Virus record (IMG/VR): IMGVR_UViG_3300031673_000180
Coordinates: 1-40,323 of that record
DNA from: a virus
Length of the DNA stretch: 40,323 nucleotides
Strand: one strand, 5' to 3'
Of this stretch, positions 27,130-40,323 are shown piece after piece (the first letter of the stretch is position 1; every line of letters begins with the position of its first letter). The notes below the pieces were generated by a model. That model was not told where the DNA came from and did not search any database. It saw nothing but the letters and a program-made list of their open reading frames with translations. A program made the position numbers and the translations under genes.

Positions 27130-27160
27130 GAGAAGGTATAAAGCCTTCTCTTTTTTATTT
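27130..27160. terminator. Bidirectional terminator between convergent units
   Basis: Perfect stem GAGAAGG/CCTTCTC (27130-27136, 27144-27150) around TATAAAG, with TTTTTT to the right and AAAA to the left. It can end both the rightward small-gene unit and the leftward RacA-like/dam unit. Confidence 0.85.
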
Positions 27161-27586
27161 CCACCACTTCCACTTCCACTTCCACTTCTTCTTCTCCTGA
27201 ATCAATCGAATCGACTCCATCAACAGCTTATCGTGCCTTTCTCCCATTACGTCTATCTTATCCTCAAGCCTTGTTATCTCCTGTTGAAAGACGGACCGAA
27301 TTGCTTCTATAACCTCTAGCTGTGTTGTTGCGACACTGTGGTTTTCTTCCTGCACTACTAAGACACCATACCTTTGTTCTAGAGACTCTCTGACCTGTTC
27401 ATACTCTAATCCCTTAGTGTAACCTTCCGAGATTAACATAAGTAATCCTACAGCTTCCTGCGAGTACCTTCGGTTTCTTCCTTCCCCTTTAGCTATAAAG
27501 TGTTCCTCGAATCGATCACGATAGAAGCGACCAGTTGATTCTTTGACGTTGGCTAGTTTACAGATTTCCTTGAATGTGATATTCAT
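27155..27586 (-). CDS. RacA/MerR-like DNA-binding protein with Lys/Trp tail
   Basis: A 143-residue protein. Residues 1-55 form a MerR-type winged helix-turn-helix (ITFKEICKLANVKESTGRFY, then the NRRYSQEAV wing). Residues 80-130 are coiled coil. The end is KKWKWKWKWWK, coded by a CTTCCA-type 6-base tandem repeat. The layout resembles RacA and DUF3967 proteins of Bacillus elements, where such proteins bind DNA and may anchor it. A role in maintenance of an extrachromosomal prophage is possible but inferred. Confidence 0.65.
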   Translation of the reverse strand: MNITFKEICKLANVKESTGRFYRDRFEEHFIAKGEGRNRRYSQEAVGLLMLISEGYTKGLEYEQVRESLEQRYGVLVVQEENHSVATTQLEVIEAIRSVFQQEITRLEDKIDVMGERHDKLLMESIRLIQEKKKWKWKWKWWK

Positions 27587-27598
27587 CGTTAATCAATC

Positions 27599-27745
27599 CT
27601 ATCTATCACCGTATATCTTATCTTTCCACTTATCAACAGGGCATTCTCCACAAGTCGAATTAGGGTGAGGTCCTTGGCATTCTTCGCACACTATGACCAT
27701 CCAATCAACCAATTCTATTAATTCATCTTTACTAACTTCAATCAT
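27599..27745 (-). CDS. Small Cys-rich protein (48 aa)
   Basis: ATG at 27745 behind AAGGAG. Four cysteines (CEEC, then C and C in CGEC) give a small zinc site after an acidic helix. Sits 12 bases before the RacA-like gene on the same strand. Confidence 0.5.
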   Translation of the reverse strand: MIEVSKDELIELVDWMVIVCEECQGPHPNSTCGECPVDKWKDKIYGDR

Positions 27746-27768
27746 ATTAACACAACTCCTTTACTAAT

Positions 27769-27807
27769 TTAATTTATATTTCTTTCTCCATCGCAAAAAC
27801 TACACAT
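27769..27807 (-). CDS. Possible 12-residue peptide or truncated zinc knuckle
   Basis: ATG at 27807 behind AAAGGAG; MCSFCDGE is the usual opening of a zinc ribbon, but the frame stops after 12 codons. It may be a decayed gene or a real micropeptide. Its upstream sequence is a copy of a 23-bp repeat found before its neighbour too. Confidence 0.25.
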   Translation of the reverse strand: MCSFCDGERNIN

Positions 27808-27816
27808 CTTATCAAC

Positions 27817-27839
27817 ACTCCTTTATATTAACTAAACTA
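27817..27839 (-). repeat. 23-bp repeat carrying a ribosome site, copy 1
   Basis: An exact 23-bp direct repeat shared with 27946-27968. Read on the minus strand it contains TTTAGTTAATATAAAGGAG, so it supplies the ribosome binding site for the downstream tiny gene. Weaker copies lie before the 48-residue gene (near 27754) and before dam (near 28742). Confidence 0.8.
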
Positions 27840-27938
27840 ACAAGTACACTCGTCGCAATCCTTTAATTTGCATATAATACATAGTTGGTATTCATCCCAC
27901 TCTAGTTGTAGTTCGTTAAATCTTTCTTCATTCTCCAT
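27837..27938 (-). CDS. Small acidic Cys protein (33 aa)
   Basis: ATG at 27938 behind AAAGGAG inside the second 23-bp repeat. An acidic helix is followed by CIICK and CDECTC, a likely metal site. Lies just downstream of dam in the same leftward unit. Confidence 0.45.
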   Translation of the reverse strand: MENEERFNELQLEWDEYQLCIICKLKDCDECTC

Positions 27939-27945
27939 GCTTACA

Positions 27946-27968
27946 ACTCCTTTATATTAACTAAACTA
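27946..27968 (-). repeat. 23-bp repeat carrying a ribosome site, copy 2
   Basis: Exact copy of 27817-27839, lying between dam and the 33-residue gene. Repetition of junction sequence suggests small-gene duplication within the operon. Confidence 0.8.
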
Positions 27969-27970
27969 GG

Positions 27971-28741
27971 TTATCCACAGTTTATTATTAAAATTTCACT
28001 AGACACCTTTTCTTTTGACATTCCATACTTCCAGCTTAATTCTACTATTCTGTAGTCTTTATACATCCGTCTTACTTCATCACAATCGTTGTATGATAAT
28101 AACCAGTTACTTCTATTTTTCAATATCTCACATAATCCATAGTGGTCAAAATCCTTGTGTAGATTACCACTAACACCATACAAAGCATTTTTTATCATGT
28201 ATGGAGGGTCAATGTATGAAAATATATTTTTATGTGCGTCGAGTGACGTTTTAAAATCAGCATAGTTAACACTAAATCTTTTAATATCACTCTCCCTAAC
28301 TCTTTTTATTGATGACTCTGTAAAGCGAGCGTGGTTCGGAGACATTCCACCTGATAATGTTGACCCTGAGAATGAACACCTATTTAAGACATAAAATATT
28401 GCTCCATAATTAACTTCATCATCTTTGTATTTTTCAATAGTCCTCTGTAGTTCGTAGAATTCAATCTTACTCAAAGGGTAAAATGTTTCAACTATATCAG
28501 CTATTTTTGAGGGACGTTTTAAAATTGAATTCCAGAATGCTACCAATGGTTTAAATATATCATATCCATGGACGGTAACACCTATATTATTTAGTGCTAA
28601 TTCAACTGAACCACCTCCAAGGAAAGGTGAAACAATTTCTTTCGTGCCATCAGGGATATATTTCAGTATTGTTTTGACAGCTCTTGATTTCCCACCTGGG
28701 TATCTTAGTAGCGTACCGTTAATCTTTGTCACTTTAAACAC
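27971..28741 (-). CDS. dam: DNA adenine methyltransferase (D12 class)
   Basis: A 256-residue methylase. RYPGGK (residues 13-18) and PFLGGGSVEL (39-48) make the S-adenosylmethionine site, and DPPY (178-181) is the catalytic motif of N6-adenine methylases, in the order of the Dam/D12 class. Length matches the family. It may protect phage DNA against restriction or mark it for regulation; the target site is unknown. GTG start at 28741 with AAAGGA upstream. It heads a leftward unit below a large structured noncoding region. Confidence 0.9.
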   Translation of the reverse strand: MFKVTKINGTLLRYPGGKSRAVKTILKYIPDGTKEIVSPFLGGGSVELALNNIGVTVHGYDIFKPLVAFWNSILKRPSKIADIVETFYPLSKIEFYELQRTIEKYKDDEVNYGAIFYVLNRCSFSGSTLSGGMSPNHARFTESSIKRVRESDIKRFSVNYADFKTSLDAHKNIFSYIDPPYMIKNALYGVSGNLHKDFDHYGLCEILKNRSNWLLSYNDCDEVRRMYKDYRIVELSWKYGMSKEKVSSEILIINCG

Positions 28742-28799
28742 AATCCTTTCGTATTATCTAAACTATATAGTTATACACACAATCCCCAAGTAATCCGGT

Positions 28800-29240
28800 A
28801 AGAGGAACTTAAAGTTAGTTAGACTTTGGGCCTTCAGAGACTAAAAAACATTAAATTGTCCTGTTTCTCAATCTCTGAAAGTCGCGAAATTTATCCGTCT
28901 AAGTATCACATCAGCCGAGTAAGTCCTCGTTCTCCGTCTACTTTCGTAGAATATGTACTACACGCCAAAGTCTGCCCTGACTGTTTCTTGATGTACATAC
29001 CGCGTCCTAAAGTTAACTTGATCCCTAGGACCAGACTTCCTTACCTAATGCCGTTAAGGGCCGCCACCGCCCAACACGAAGTCATAACTATAACGAGTAA
29101 TAGCTCGTTCGTGCTGCCAGTTTGCTCATATCGGGCCGGCTACCCTAGAGAGTTTTAGGTGTTCTTCTCATCATTGCCACCAGAGGGTACAACAAAAGCT
29201 ACAAACCTCATTGGCCTGTAGCTCGAAAATTTCCTTAAAC
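28800..29240 (-). ncRNA. Large structured RNA candidate upstream of dam (about 400-450 nt)
   Basis: No credible gene fits. Helices on the minus strand pair 29222-29213 with 29207-29198, 29116-29109 with 29079-29072, and 29108-29104 with 29097-29093. Others pair 29140-29133 with 29072-29063, 29031-29026 with 29009-29004, 28950-28946 with 28941-28937 (GAAA tetraloop) and 28881-28872 with 28840-28831. At least three contain G-U pairs that become A-C mismatches on the plus strand, so the minus strand is the likely RNA. Size and phage context recall ornate phage RNAs such as ROOL or GOLLD, but I cannot match a consensus. Confidence 0.6.
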
Positions 29241-29246
29241 TTACAC

Positions 29247-29275
29247 TTGCTCAAAATTAGCCTAGAGCGTATAAT
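29247..29275 (+). promoter_or_regulatory. Promoter TTGCTC-17-TATAAT
   Basis: TTGCTC (29247-29252), exact 17-base spacer, TATAAT (29270-29275). It points rightward, against the flanking genes, towards a terminator 45 bases on. Confidence 0.65.
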
Positions 29276-29281
29276 GTGATT

Positions 29282-29355
29282 AAGAGTTTTTCCTGCTACT
29301 ACAGGTCAAACACAGAGGTCCTCGACGTTTCCAGCGTCGGGGGCTTTGTTTTTAT
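29282..29355 (+). ncRNA. Short terminated RNA candidate (about 70 nt), antisense to the upstream side of the large RNA
   Basis: From the predicted start near 29282 the RNA holds CCTG-CTACTA-CAGG, then an 8-bp stem CCTCGACG/CGTCGGGG (29320-29327, 29335-29342) with one U-G pair, followed by CTTTGTTTTTA. It has no start codon with a ribosome site. If the large minus-strand RNA starts further upstream, this RNA would be complementary to its 5' end. Confidence 0.5.
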
Positions 29356-29383
29356 TCAATTGTGAATCTTTTAATCTATTTTA

Positions 29384-29518
29384 TCATATATTAATAGGCT
29401 TGTCTAGCAAATTAAGAACGCTTGTTTCATACTCTTTTCTATATCGAGGATCAACAAAAACAAAATCATCACATACTAGCCATTTCAGATACCCCCCTAG
29501 ATCCATTTCAACAATCAT
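29384..29518 (-). CDS. Hypothetical protein (44 aa)
   Basis: ATG at 29518 behind AAAGGAAG. A 44-residue acidic protein with VDPRYRKEYE and a helical end; no family known. It lies between the ImmR-like repressor and the large RNA, on their strand. Confidence 0.45.
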   Translation of the reverse strand: MIVEMDLGGYLKWLVCDDFVFVDPRYRKEYETSVLNLLDKPINI

Positions 29519-29586
29519 GTCAAAACTTCCTTTCTGCCAAAATAAAATGTCTTATTTAATTTCTCTAAATACTAGCATATCCCTCT

Positions 29587-29696: not shown

Positions 29697-30080
29697 TTAT
29701 TTAGACTTCATTTTTTTGATGCTCTCTAGGAGATCGCGGAGGAATTCGGGGTCGATTTGTTCATCGTGCAAGTCGCGGGCTAATCTGGCATAAGGTAGAT
29801 GCTCTAAGTTCCCAAAAAACTCTATCACATCGGTTGGTATGCCGACATTTTTTAAGTCAACTAGTTCGTGAAAGGTTACATCTTCGTCATTCAGTAGATA
29901 GGATGAACTTACTCCAAGGGCATCGGCCACCTTCTCTAGGGCCTTGATGCTCATGTTTGACCTTCCCAGCTCTGCATCACTAAGGTAACTGACAGACAAG
30001 CCGGATTTATTAGCAAGCTCAAGTAGTGTTATATCACGAACCTTAGTCCGAACGAATCTAATCTTATCACCATATTTCAA
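29697..30080 (-). CDS. ImmR-like XRE repressor (127 aa)
   Basis: Residues 1-62 are an XRE helix-turn-helix (TLLELANKSGLSVSYLSDAELGRSN). The rest is helical without a LexA-type peptidase. Length and layout match ImmR-type repressors, which are inactivated by a separate metalloprotease; no such ImmA gene is present here. TTG start 30080 behind GGAGG. Divergent from 30309 across operators, so it is the prime candidate for the lysogeny repressor. Confidence 0.8.
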   Translation of the reverse strand: MKYGDKIRFVRTKVRDITLLELANKSGLSVSYLSDAELGRSNMSIKALEKVADALGVSSSYLLNDEDVTFHELVDLKNVGIPTDVIEFFGNLEHLPYARLARDLHDEQIDPEFLRDLLESIKKMKSK

Positions 30081-30193: not shown

Positions 30194-30292
30194 TTGACAT
30201 TACGCATATTCCGTAATATAATAGCATTAGATAAAGTGAACAGGCGAAAACAACGCATATTTTTTTAATCAGCGATTACGGAATTATAGTAA
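30194..30292 (+). promoter_or_regulatory. Perfect-consensus promoter with 17-bp operators
   Basis: TTGACA (30194-30199), 17 bases, TATAAT (30217-30222). The spacer itself is the inverted repeat TTACGCATATTCCGTAA (30200-30216). A second copy, TTACGGAATTATAGTAA, lies at 30276-30292 just before the ribosome site, and a half copy (AACGCATATT) lies near 30252. Repressor binding at the first site would block the rightward promoter directly. Confidence 0.85.
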
Positions 30293-30308
30293 TAGGAGGT
30301 GAATATAA

Positions 30309-30506
30309 TTGTCAATTGGGAGCCAAGTCCGCAAATACAGGAAATTAAAGAGGTGGACACTTCGCGAGCTTGGAGAACGCTCTGGGCTAGCTATCGGAAC
30401 ACTATCAGATATTGAAGTGGATCGAAGGCCGGGAAGTATCAAGGCTGTAACTAAGATAGCGGAAGCATTGGGCGTAGATGTGGATTATCTGTTTAAAAAA
30501 GATTAG
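30309..30506 (+). CDS. Short XRE protein (Cro-like, 65 aa)
   Basis: A single XRE helix-turn-helix (LKRWTLRELGERSGLAIGTLSDIEVDRRPG) filling residues 12-45. TTG start 30309, nine bases after GGAGG. Rightward from the operator-bearing promoter and divergent from the ImmR-like gene, it fits a Cro role. Confidence 0.8.
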   Translation: MSIGSQVRKYRKLKRWTLRELGERSGLAIGTLSDIEVDRRPGSIKAVTKIAEALGVDVDYLFKKD

Positions 30507-38250: not shown

Positions 38251-38985
38251 ATGAAGCACATCGTAATGTTCTCAGGAGGCGCAGCATCAAGCGTAGTAGC
38301 TAAGATGGTTGCAGACAAATACCCCAATGACACAATACTCCTCCATACTCCAACAGGGGCCGAGCATCCAGACGCAGATCGATTCAGGGAGCAAGTGGCG
38401 AAGTTCATAGGATTGCCAATCACTATCGAAAAAGCATCAAAAACGCTTTGGGAGTTGGTTGAAAGCAGGAAAGACGTCCCAAATAACATGTTCCCTTATT
38501 GTTCAACTGAATTAAAACTAATCACAAAAGATAGATTTGTTAAGCGATTTGAAAAGAGGGGAGAAGATTTTACTGAGTACCTTGGACTAGGAGTTGATGA
38601 GTGGAGAAGGATACAAAAGGTCTGGGTTAGACATCAAGCCGATAACCGTAAAGTTGAATTTCCCCTCATGGATGCCAAATTAACTGGTGAAGATTGCAAA
38701 AATATAATTCGTGAAGAATGGAAAATATGCTTACCTTCTCCCTATCAATATCTAAGCCATAACAACTGTATCCCATGTTATAAGGGTGGGCAATCGCACT
38801 GGTTTAAGGTATGGAAGTATTACCGGACAGAGTTTGATAGAGCAGCCAAGGCAGAACGAACAACGGCGAATAATGTATTCAAAGAATTCAGCTTAGATGA
38901 GCTTTCTGATAAATGGTCAAAGGAACCAGAACAGATGGATCTATGGGGAGATATGGAAGGAATACCATGTATGTGCTCGTTGTAA
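38251..38985 (+). CDS. PAPS-reductase-like ATP pyrophosphatase
   Basis: A 244-residue protein of the N-type ATP-PPase family: MFSGGAASS (residues 6-14) is the PP-loop that holds ATP phosphate, followed by TPTGAEHPD, and cysteines CSTELK, CIPCYKGG and a final CMCSL that suggest an iron-sulfur or zinc site. Related phage proteins are annotated as phosphoadenosine phosphosulfate reductases; they may serve in sulfur transfer or DNA or RNA modification instead. The true substrate is unknown. Confidence 0.75.
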   Translation: MKHIVMFSGGAASSVVAKMVADKYPNDTILLHTPTGAEHPDADRFREQVAKFIGLPITIEKASKTLWELVESRKDVPNNMFPYCSTELKLITKDRFVKRFEKRGEDFTEYLGLGVDEWRRIQKVWVRHQADNRKVEFPLMDAKLTGEDCKNIIREEWKICLPSPYQYLSHNNCIPCYKGGQSHWFKVWKYYRTEFDRAAKAERTTANNVFKEFSLDELSDKWSKEPEQMDLWGDMEGIPCMCSL

Positions 38986-39878: not shown

Positions 39879-40314
39879 GGATGCAGTAGAGCGAACGAGA
39901 GAACAAACAGCGCAATACTGGAATGAGCTAGCATTACCCAAAATAAAAGCAACACAGCGAAAGCCAAAGCCCGAGAAGAAAAAGAAAAACCATCTAGCTG
40001 GATTAGCAAAAGCATATGCAGAGGTAGATGAGAGGGATGAAAGAAGATGCCAATTCCCTTCATGCTACAGCACAAATACTAATCACCATCACATATTATT
40101 CAAGTCACAAGGTGGAAAAAATGATTTAGAAAATTTAGTAACATTATGTCCAGCCCATCATGTTTTAGAAAAAGACATATCGGCGCATAGATCGGTGGCA
40201 TGGCAAAGGTACTGGCAAGGCTGGGCGGAAGATAGGTACCCGAAATATTGGCAGGAGATCCGAGAAGGTCAGAAGATACAACAATATAACAACAACACAG
40301 CTATAGGAGGGTGA
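39844..40314 (+). CDS. HNH endonuclease
   Basis: About 156 residues from ATG 39844 (in-frame ATG 39760 would overlap the resolvase gene further). A basic helical N terminus is followed by the HNH core RRCQFPSCYSTNTNHHHILF, then GGKNDLENLVTLCPAHH, with zinc cysteines and catalytic His residues. HNH proteins near the packaging genes help the terminase in many phages; here terS lies about 2.4 kb on in the circular map. The end is repeated at the window start. Confidence 0.85.
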   Translation: MQSKKAICHKFEDAVERTREQTAQYWNELALPKIKATQRKPKPEKKKKNHLAGLAKAYAEVDERDERRCQFPSCYSTNTNHHHILFKSQGGKNDLENLVTLCPAHHVLEKDISAHRSVAWQRYWQGWAEDRYPKYWQEIREGQKIQQYNNNTAIGG

Positions 40315-40323
40315 GGGATGAAA
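40195..40323. repeat. Terminal overlap, right copy
   Basis: Same sequence as 1-129 except one base (G at 40197 for T at 3). Joining the two gives a circle of about 40,194 bp in which the HNH gene runs into the zinc-ribbon gene. Confidence 0.9.

Follow-up and report, generated by a model that had tools for sequence, protein, structure and literature searches.

The window analysed here is the whole stretch of 40,323 nucleotides of the IMG/VR virus record IMGVR_UViG_3300031673_000180 (positions 1-40,323). It ends in a direct repeat of 129 bp with one mismatch (1-129 and 40195-40323) and, because the independent contig L004 bridges the junction of this repeat, the window is a complete phage genome, circular or circularly permuted. 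The phage probably belongs to the Bacillota phages and has its own lytic replication genes, a DnaD-like loader and a primase-helicase; a phosphoadenosine phosphosulfate reductase-like gene lies amid the phage replication genes (38251-38985, plus strand). There is a cI-like repressor and, opposite to it, an exact consensus promoter (TTGACA-17-TATAAT) followed by an ORF for a Cro-like helix-turn-helix (HTH) protein with 45% identity to the N-terminus of cI (30217-30497, plus strand): these two are the lytic side of the switch. No integrase was found among the scanned proteins of the complete genome.

On the minus strand, cI is followed by a small ORF, as is always the case in the related phages; its product matches no known family. 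The small ORF ends near 29389, and the next gene downstream, the DNA methyltransferase gene dam, starts at 28741 or slightly downstream, leaving about 650 bases without a gene (28742-29389). Behind dam there are three tiny ORFs with Cys-rich products, among which the ribosome-binding stretch TTTAGTTAATATAAAGGAGT recurs (27590-27960, minus strand), and then a MerR-like gene (Table 1). The C-terminus of the MerR-like protein is KKKWKWKWKWWK, for which the gene has perfect tandem copies of CCACTT, and relatives of the protein are found in phages that have a rep gene as well as on Bacillota plasmids of 5-11 kb (in Heyndrickxia, Niallia, Brevibacillus, Priestia and Thermaerobacter). In a structure model the HTH fits MerR proteins; the model has a pTM of 0.47 and no match at E <= 0.001, and a role of the protein in segregation or partition, which is probable, therefore rests on context. 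TubY, which serves partition in plasmids and phages of Bacillus and Clostridium, consists of a MerR HTH, a coiled coil and a lysine-rich amphipathic tail (PMC7762940): the MerR-like protein has the same architecture, the likeness being one of layout.

Table 1. Features at the locus, in window coordinates
Feature	Position	Strand	Basis or remark
MerR-like gene (MerR-type HTH, long helix/coiled coil, K/W-rich tail)	27155-27586	minus	PF13411
dam (D12-class N6-adenine DNA methyltransferase)	27971-28741	minus	PF02086, E = 6.6e-28
DnaA box TTATACACA, at the RNA 3' end, possible origin side	28771-28779	plus	weak
Long structured noncoding RNA, about 600 nt, candidate replication RNA/preprimer	28770-29371	minus	fold z-scores; no coding signal, family or homologue
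3' structured domain past the attenuator	28790-29195	minus	predicted fold z = -3.4, 0/100 shuffles as good
Segment gamma	29196-29207	minus	12-bp hairpin with beta (29224-29196), then UUUUGUUG; terminator-like attenuator
Segment beta CUACAGGCCAA	29211-29221	minus	pairs with alpha or gamma
Putative antisense promoter TTGCTC-17 nt-TATAAT	29247-29275	plus	-10 perfect; -35 matches 3/6
Putative antisense RNA (RNA I analogue), about 70 nt, two stem-loops	29282-29350	plus	predicted fold -29.7 kcal/mol
Segment alpha UUGACCUGUAG	29299-29309	minus	pairs with beta, 10/11
Intrinsic terminator of the antisense RNA	29315-29347	plus	15-bp stem and U tract
Putative long-RNA promoter TAGACA-17 nt-TAAAAT, TG before -10	29378-29406	minus	consensus scan, 10/12 matches
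Small conserved ORF (MIVEMDLGGYLKW..., also as MIVEMDLGGYLKWLVCDD...DPRY)	29390-29520	minus	between cI and RNA; 51-67% identity in relatives, same position
cI-like repressor	29697-30080	minus	phrog_8 and others; 50-65% identity in 16 IMG/VR loci

The gene-free region and its fold

A preliminary description of this DNA had proposed a large RNA on the minus strand within more than 400 bases without a gene, and had named a match to a protein-coding gene as evidence to the contrary. All six frames were searched and none matched any family in PHROGs or Pfam; the best six-frame codon score of 28790-29190 was -0.25, compared with -0.23 +/- 0.06 for shuffled sequence, on a scale on which most real genes of the phage reach 0 to 0.25. 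A protein-coding reading on either strand, including a plus-strand ORF of 110 amino acids, is thus ruled out.

The minus strand of 28800-29240 folds with -143.2 kcal/mol (z = -4.6, none of 200 shuffles as good) and the plus strand with z = -2.7; over 28770-29370 the minus strand reaches z = -4.2. When the entire genome was scanned in 228 windows of 400 nt, the RNA region ranked fifth: folding stability alone is a top-2% signal, neither unique nor proof. An RNA of the plus strand as the main product is ruled out, as the core folds worse on that strand and the switch score described below is ordinary there. Three helices of the preliminary description (29213-29222/29198-29207, 29109-29116/29072-29079 and 28872-28881/28831-28840) are present, with G-U pairs on the minus strand only, and so is its hairpin with a GAAA tetraloop (CUAC-GAAA-GUAG, 28949-28938). 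The most meaningful of these helices is the one at 29198-29224, because it is one arm of the switch.

On its 5' side the RNA very probably reaches to about 29371, where a start is predicted that lies opposite the end of the short antisense RNA; the promoter match upstream is insignificant when taken alone, since chance would give 3.2 sites of this quality in the region scanned. The 3' side has the weak DnaA box, and matches to TTATNCACA number four in 40 kb, with two expected. No iterons were found between 27000 and 31000, where the sole tandem repeat is the CCACTT array coding for the KW tail, and a start site for DNA polymerase I / RNase H is not recognisable in the region.

At the sensitivity available, homologue searches with the RNA region gave nothing real, neither by blastn against phages and plasmids nor against the full IMG/VR records behind 14 loci; scans of translated frames against IMG/VR and GTDB species genomes yielded none, and two exact DNA patterns searched across IMG/VR gave chance seeds only. 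Rfam likewise returned nothing relevant, RNAI included, at the gathering threshold and at E <= 10.

Antisense cassette and alpha/beta/gamma switch

The 5' 180 nt of the minus-strand RNA have the anatomy of a plasmid copy-number region, which the preliminary description did not include. The putative antisense RNA, which is complementary over its whole length to the 5' part of the long RNA, has one stem-loop at 29292-29305 (CCUG-CUACUA-CAGG) and a second one that is the terminator hairpin; a separate terminator scan placed this hairpin among the 7 plus-strand terminators of the genome. The combination of an exact TATAAT promoter with a strong terminator at most 150 nt further on occurs as a single pair in the 40 kb, both strands scanned. 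Both promoters, of the long RNA and of the antisense RNA, are weak consensus matches.

Pairing of alpha with beta and of beta with gamma is mutually exclusive. The switch score is 13.9: none of 1000 shuffles attains it, only 4 of 854 windows across the genome do, and it is high on the minus strand only. In predicted folding of the nascent chain, alpha:beta persists until gamma is made at 29198 and then gives way to beta:gamma, and when the antisense target is masked, beta:gamma alone remains. The beta:gamma hairpin together with the following UUUUGUUG was flagged as terminator-like. Plasmids that set their copy number with an antisense RNA follow this logic.

The initiator slot in related phages

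With the repressor and the MerR-like protein as queries, about 30 IMG/VR loci were gathered; no cultured members of the phage group are present in the collections searched. The gene order in these loci is constant (cI, small ORF, replication initiator, MerR-like gene): an initiator lies just upstream of the MerR-like gene in all 16 IMG/VR loci that carry this gene (in one, as the end of the gene only). The initiators are of at least four types, matching PHROGs families of replication initiation or helicase loaders, and the type is exchanged between unchanged flanks (L008, L011, L014, L018, L019/L041, L020, L023/L042, L024, L031-L046). The position between small ORF and MerR-like gene is an exchangeable slot for lysogenic maintenance. 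In L013, a locus that has only cI in common with the window, cI and its small ORF are followed by a gene for a serine integrase.

In the window, the slot is occupied by the RNA together with dam and a few tiny ORFs, with the 3' structured domain at the place of the Rep reading frame of the relatives. Initiators of the four slot types were found nowhere in the complete genome, and the frames behind the attenuator match neither Reps nor PHROGs, even when stops are read through. As no Rep frame or initiator was found and the 400 nt are structured and lack a coding signal, the best candidate for the initiator is the RNA itself. The phage's own DnaD-like loader and primase-helicase could serve the prophage instead. 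A sister phage (the contig of L003 and L018), with a primase that is 83% identical, has its own DnaD-like lytic loader and has also kept the slot Rep; therefore, lytic replication genes do not replace the function of the slot.

Several relatives have a terminator-like hairpin just before rep, and several have a strong match to an antisense promoter (ATGACA/TAGACA-17-TATACT) on the upstream side of rep, at a distance of about 40-60 nt, both from scans with loose thresholds and no shuffle control; the sites are at about 4897 in L008, 4782 in L011, 4932 in L014, 4800 in L020 and 3396 in L043. The sequences make control of the Reps of these phage-plasmids by countertranscripts probable, and the slot seems to have relied on antisense control for a long time.

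Known systems, rival explanations and meaning

Three kinds of replicon offer comparisons. ColE1 RNA II has about 550 nt, and RNA I has two or three loops (two in Vibrionales and Pasteurellales); ColE1 replicons are described only from Proteobacteria, in five orders (PMC8683028). The window resembles them in four ways: its long RNA is primer-sized (about 600 nt), a predicted antisense RNA with two loops matches the 5' end of that RNA, beta can pair with alpha or with gamma but not with both, and no Rep was found. It differs in that there is no sequence similarity, no Rfam RNAI match and no blastn match to plasmids, and is not classed as a ColE1 member; moreover, a U-rich tract follows gamma, so that termination may be the means of control. 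In pIP501 and pT181, the antisense RNA causes transcription to end within the leader of rep (PMC5703833); these plasmids share with the window an HTH regulator upstream, an antisense RNA and an antisense-induced attenuator hairpin (here predicted); unlike in these plasmids, no Rep reading frame follows the attenuator of the window.

The mycobacteriophages are the functional precedent, by analogy, for prophage origins based on RNA. According to the part of PMC7157519 cited here, most cluster A mycobacteriophages without integrase lack RepA, and a region of about 400-500 bp beside parABS that encodes a noncoding RNA is needed for stable lysogeny. Like the window, the non-RepA phages Alma, LadyBird and RedRock are temperate, have no integrase and have the noncoding RNA next to a partition gene (in the window, the probable one described above); the presence of RepA in some relatives and of the RNA in others parallels the slot (same part of PMC7157519). 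Partition is by ParABS in the mycobacteriophages and would be by the MerR/TubY-like protein in this apparent Bacillota phage. A further difference is that the antisense RNA and the switch are recognisable in the window, whereas that part of PMC7157519 describes no control mechanism for the mycobacteriophages.

We infer the following sequence of transcription, antitermination and priming. Transcription of the long RNA would begin at about 29371 and proceed on the minus strand in the direction of dam, and the antisense RNA of about 70 nt, from the opposite strand, would bind its 5' end. When the antisense RNA is absent, alpha:beta would form and transcription run on into the structured domain of 400 nt; when it is bound, alpha would be masked, and the beta:gamma pairing would give the terminator-like hairpin that halts the transcript. 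The completed structured RNA would most likely prime replication, as do ColE1 RNA II and, apparently, the noncoding RNA of the non-RepA mycobacteriophages, with the origin possibly toward the 3' end of the RNA.

The best reading is thus a candidate RNA origin that would work like ColE1 RNA II with an attenuator of the pT181/pIP501 type, related to neither by sequence. Among the identities offered in the preliminary description, which were a ROOL- or GOLLD-like RNA, a leader of dam and a plasmid-type replication RNA, the last is best supported, by the antisense RNA, the switch, the gene neighbourhood (the synteny of the slot had also not been part of that description) and the precedent. In its broad form, the claim that the region is a plasmid-type antisense-controlled module is probably correct. 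We see an even chance that the region is specifically an antisense-controlled, RNA-based origin with which a non-integrating prophage replicates outside the chromosome and sets its copy number, and the arguments for and against the RNA starting replication alone are about balanced. Points against an RNA origin are that no homologue was found, that both promoters are weak matches, that stability alone does not set the region apart, that no priming start site is recognisable, and that dam, and no obvious origin, lies downstream of the RNA.

The switch might instead control dam, the whole RNA being a very long regulated leader of the methyltransferase gene and no primer: no terminator was found between the two, both are on the same strand, and dam starts about 30 nt past the last helices. 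This is unlikely, as the slot of the relatives holds replication initiators and never dam in the loci compared, antisense attenuation is typical of plasmid replication genes, and the structured 400 nt between attenuator and dam would be unexplained. ROOL and GOLLD are usually located near tRNA islands. The window has in common with them a large structured RNA in a phage (PMC12286853), and size, fold and location would fit a stand-alone ornate RNA apart from replication; there is, however, no Rfam family for it (ROOL, GOLLD, raiA and OLE included) at threshold and nothing relevant at E <= 10, the phage has 0 tRNAs and hence no tRNA island, and the RNA is laid out like a plasmid control region. 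As the antisense cassette and the plasmid slot would also be left without explanation, we consider such an RNA very improbable.

Two further explanations retain a Rep protein, past or present. The region could be a remnant that has kept the antisense-controlled leader of a rep gene now decayed or replaced by junk, with the 400 nt as pseudogene sequence: they have the size of the smaller Rep genes of relatives (131-133 amino acids), and the attenuator-like hairpin of relatives, in the loose-threshold scan, is right before rep. The failure of any frame to match with stops read through, the codon signal equal to that of shuffled sequence and the minus-strand z-scores of -3.1 to -4.6, versus -0.9 to +0.3 for the rep genes of relatives, argue against it and make a remnant rather improbable. 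Alternatively, the RNA works together with an unrecognised Rep, for example the tiny peptide MMRRTPKTL or the product of a gene elsewhere, in which case only the leader would distinguish the system from an ordinary Rep plasmid. The slot Reps are highly varied in type and several genes of the phage have no family, but no candidate frame follows the attenuator, while in the other slots rep follows directly; the chance of a hidden Rep is slim.

Since an RNA in the initiator slot carries a copy-number switch and an antisense RNA, the phage may copy its dormant form with RNA instead of protein. The RNA-only origins known are those of the ColE1-like plasmids of Proteobacteria and of the mycobacteriophages, the latter with no control mechanism described in the part of PMC7157519 cited. 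It is a tentative proposal, with the balance tilted slightly against it, that a prophage origin outside Actinobacteria and Proteobacteria is primed by RNA without any protein, combines a ColE1-like switch with a pT181-like attenuator for its control, and has replaced the Rep gene of a module in which related phages freely swap initiators or an integrase. If true, it would provide a simple, testable origin for vectors, and the antisense switch in the RNA origin of a Bacillota phage-plasmid would link ColE1-like and mycobacteriophage origins. Other gene-poor regions with 'ornate RNA' in phages without integrase may then be replication origins too, and the initiator slot of temperate phages would accept RNA as well as protein.
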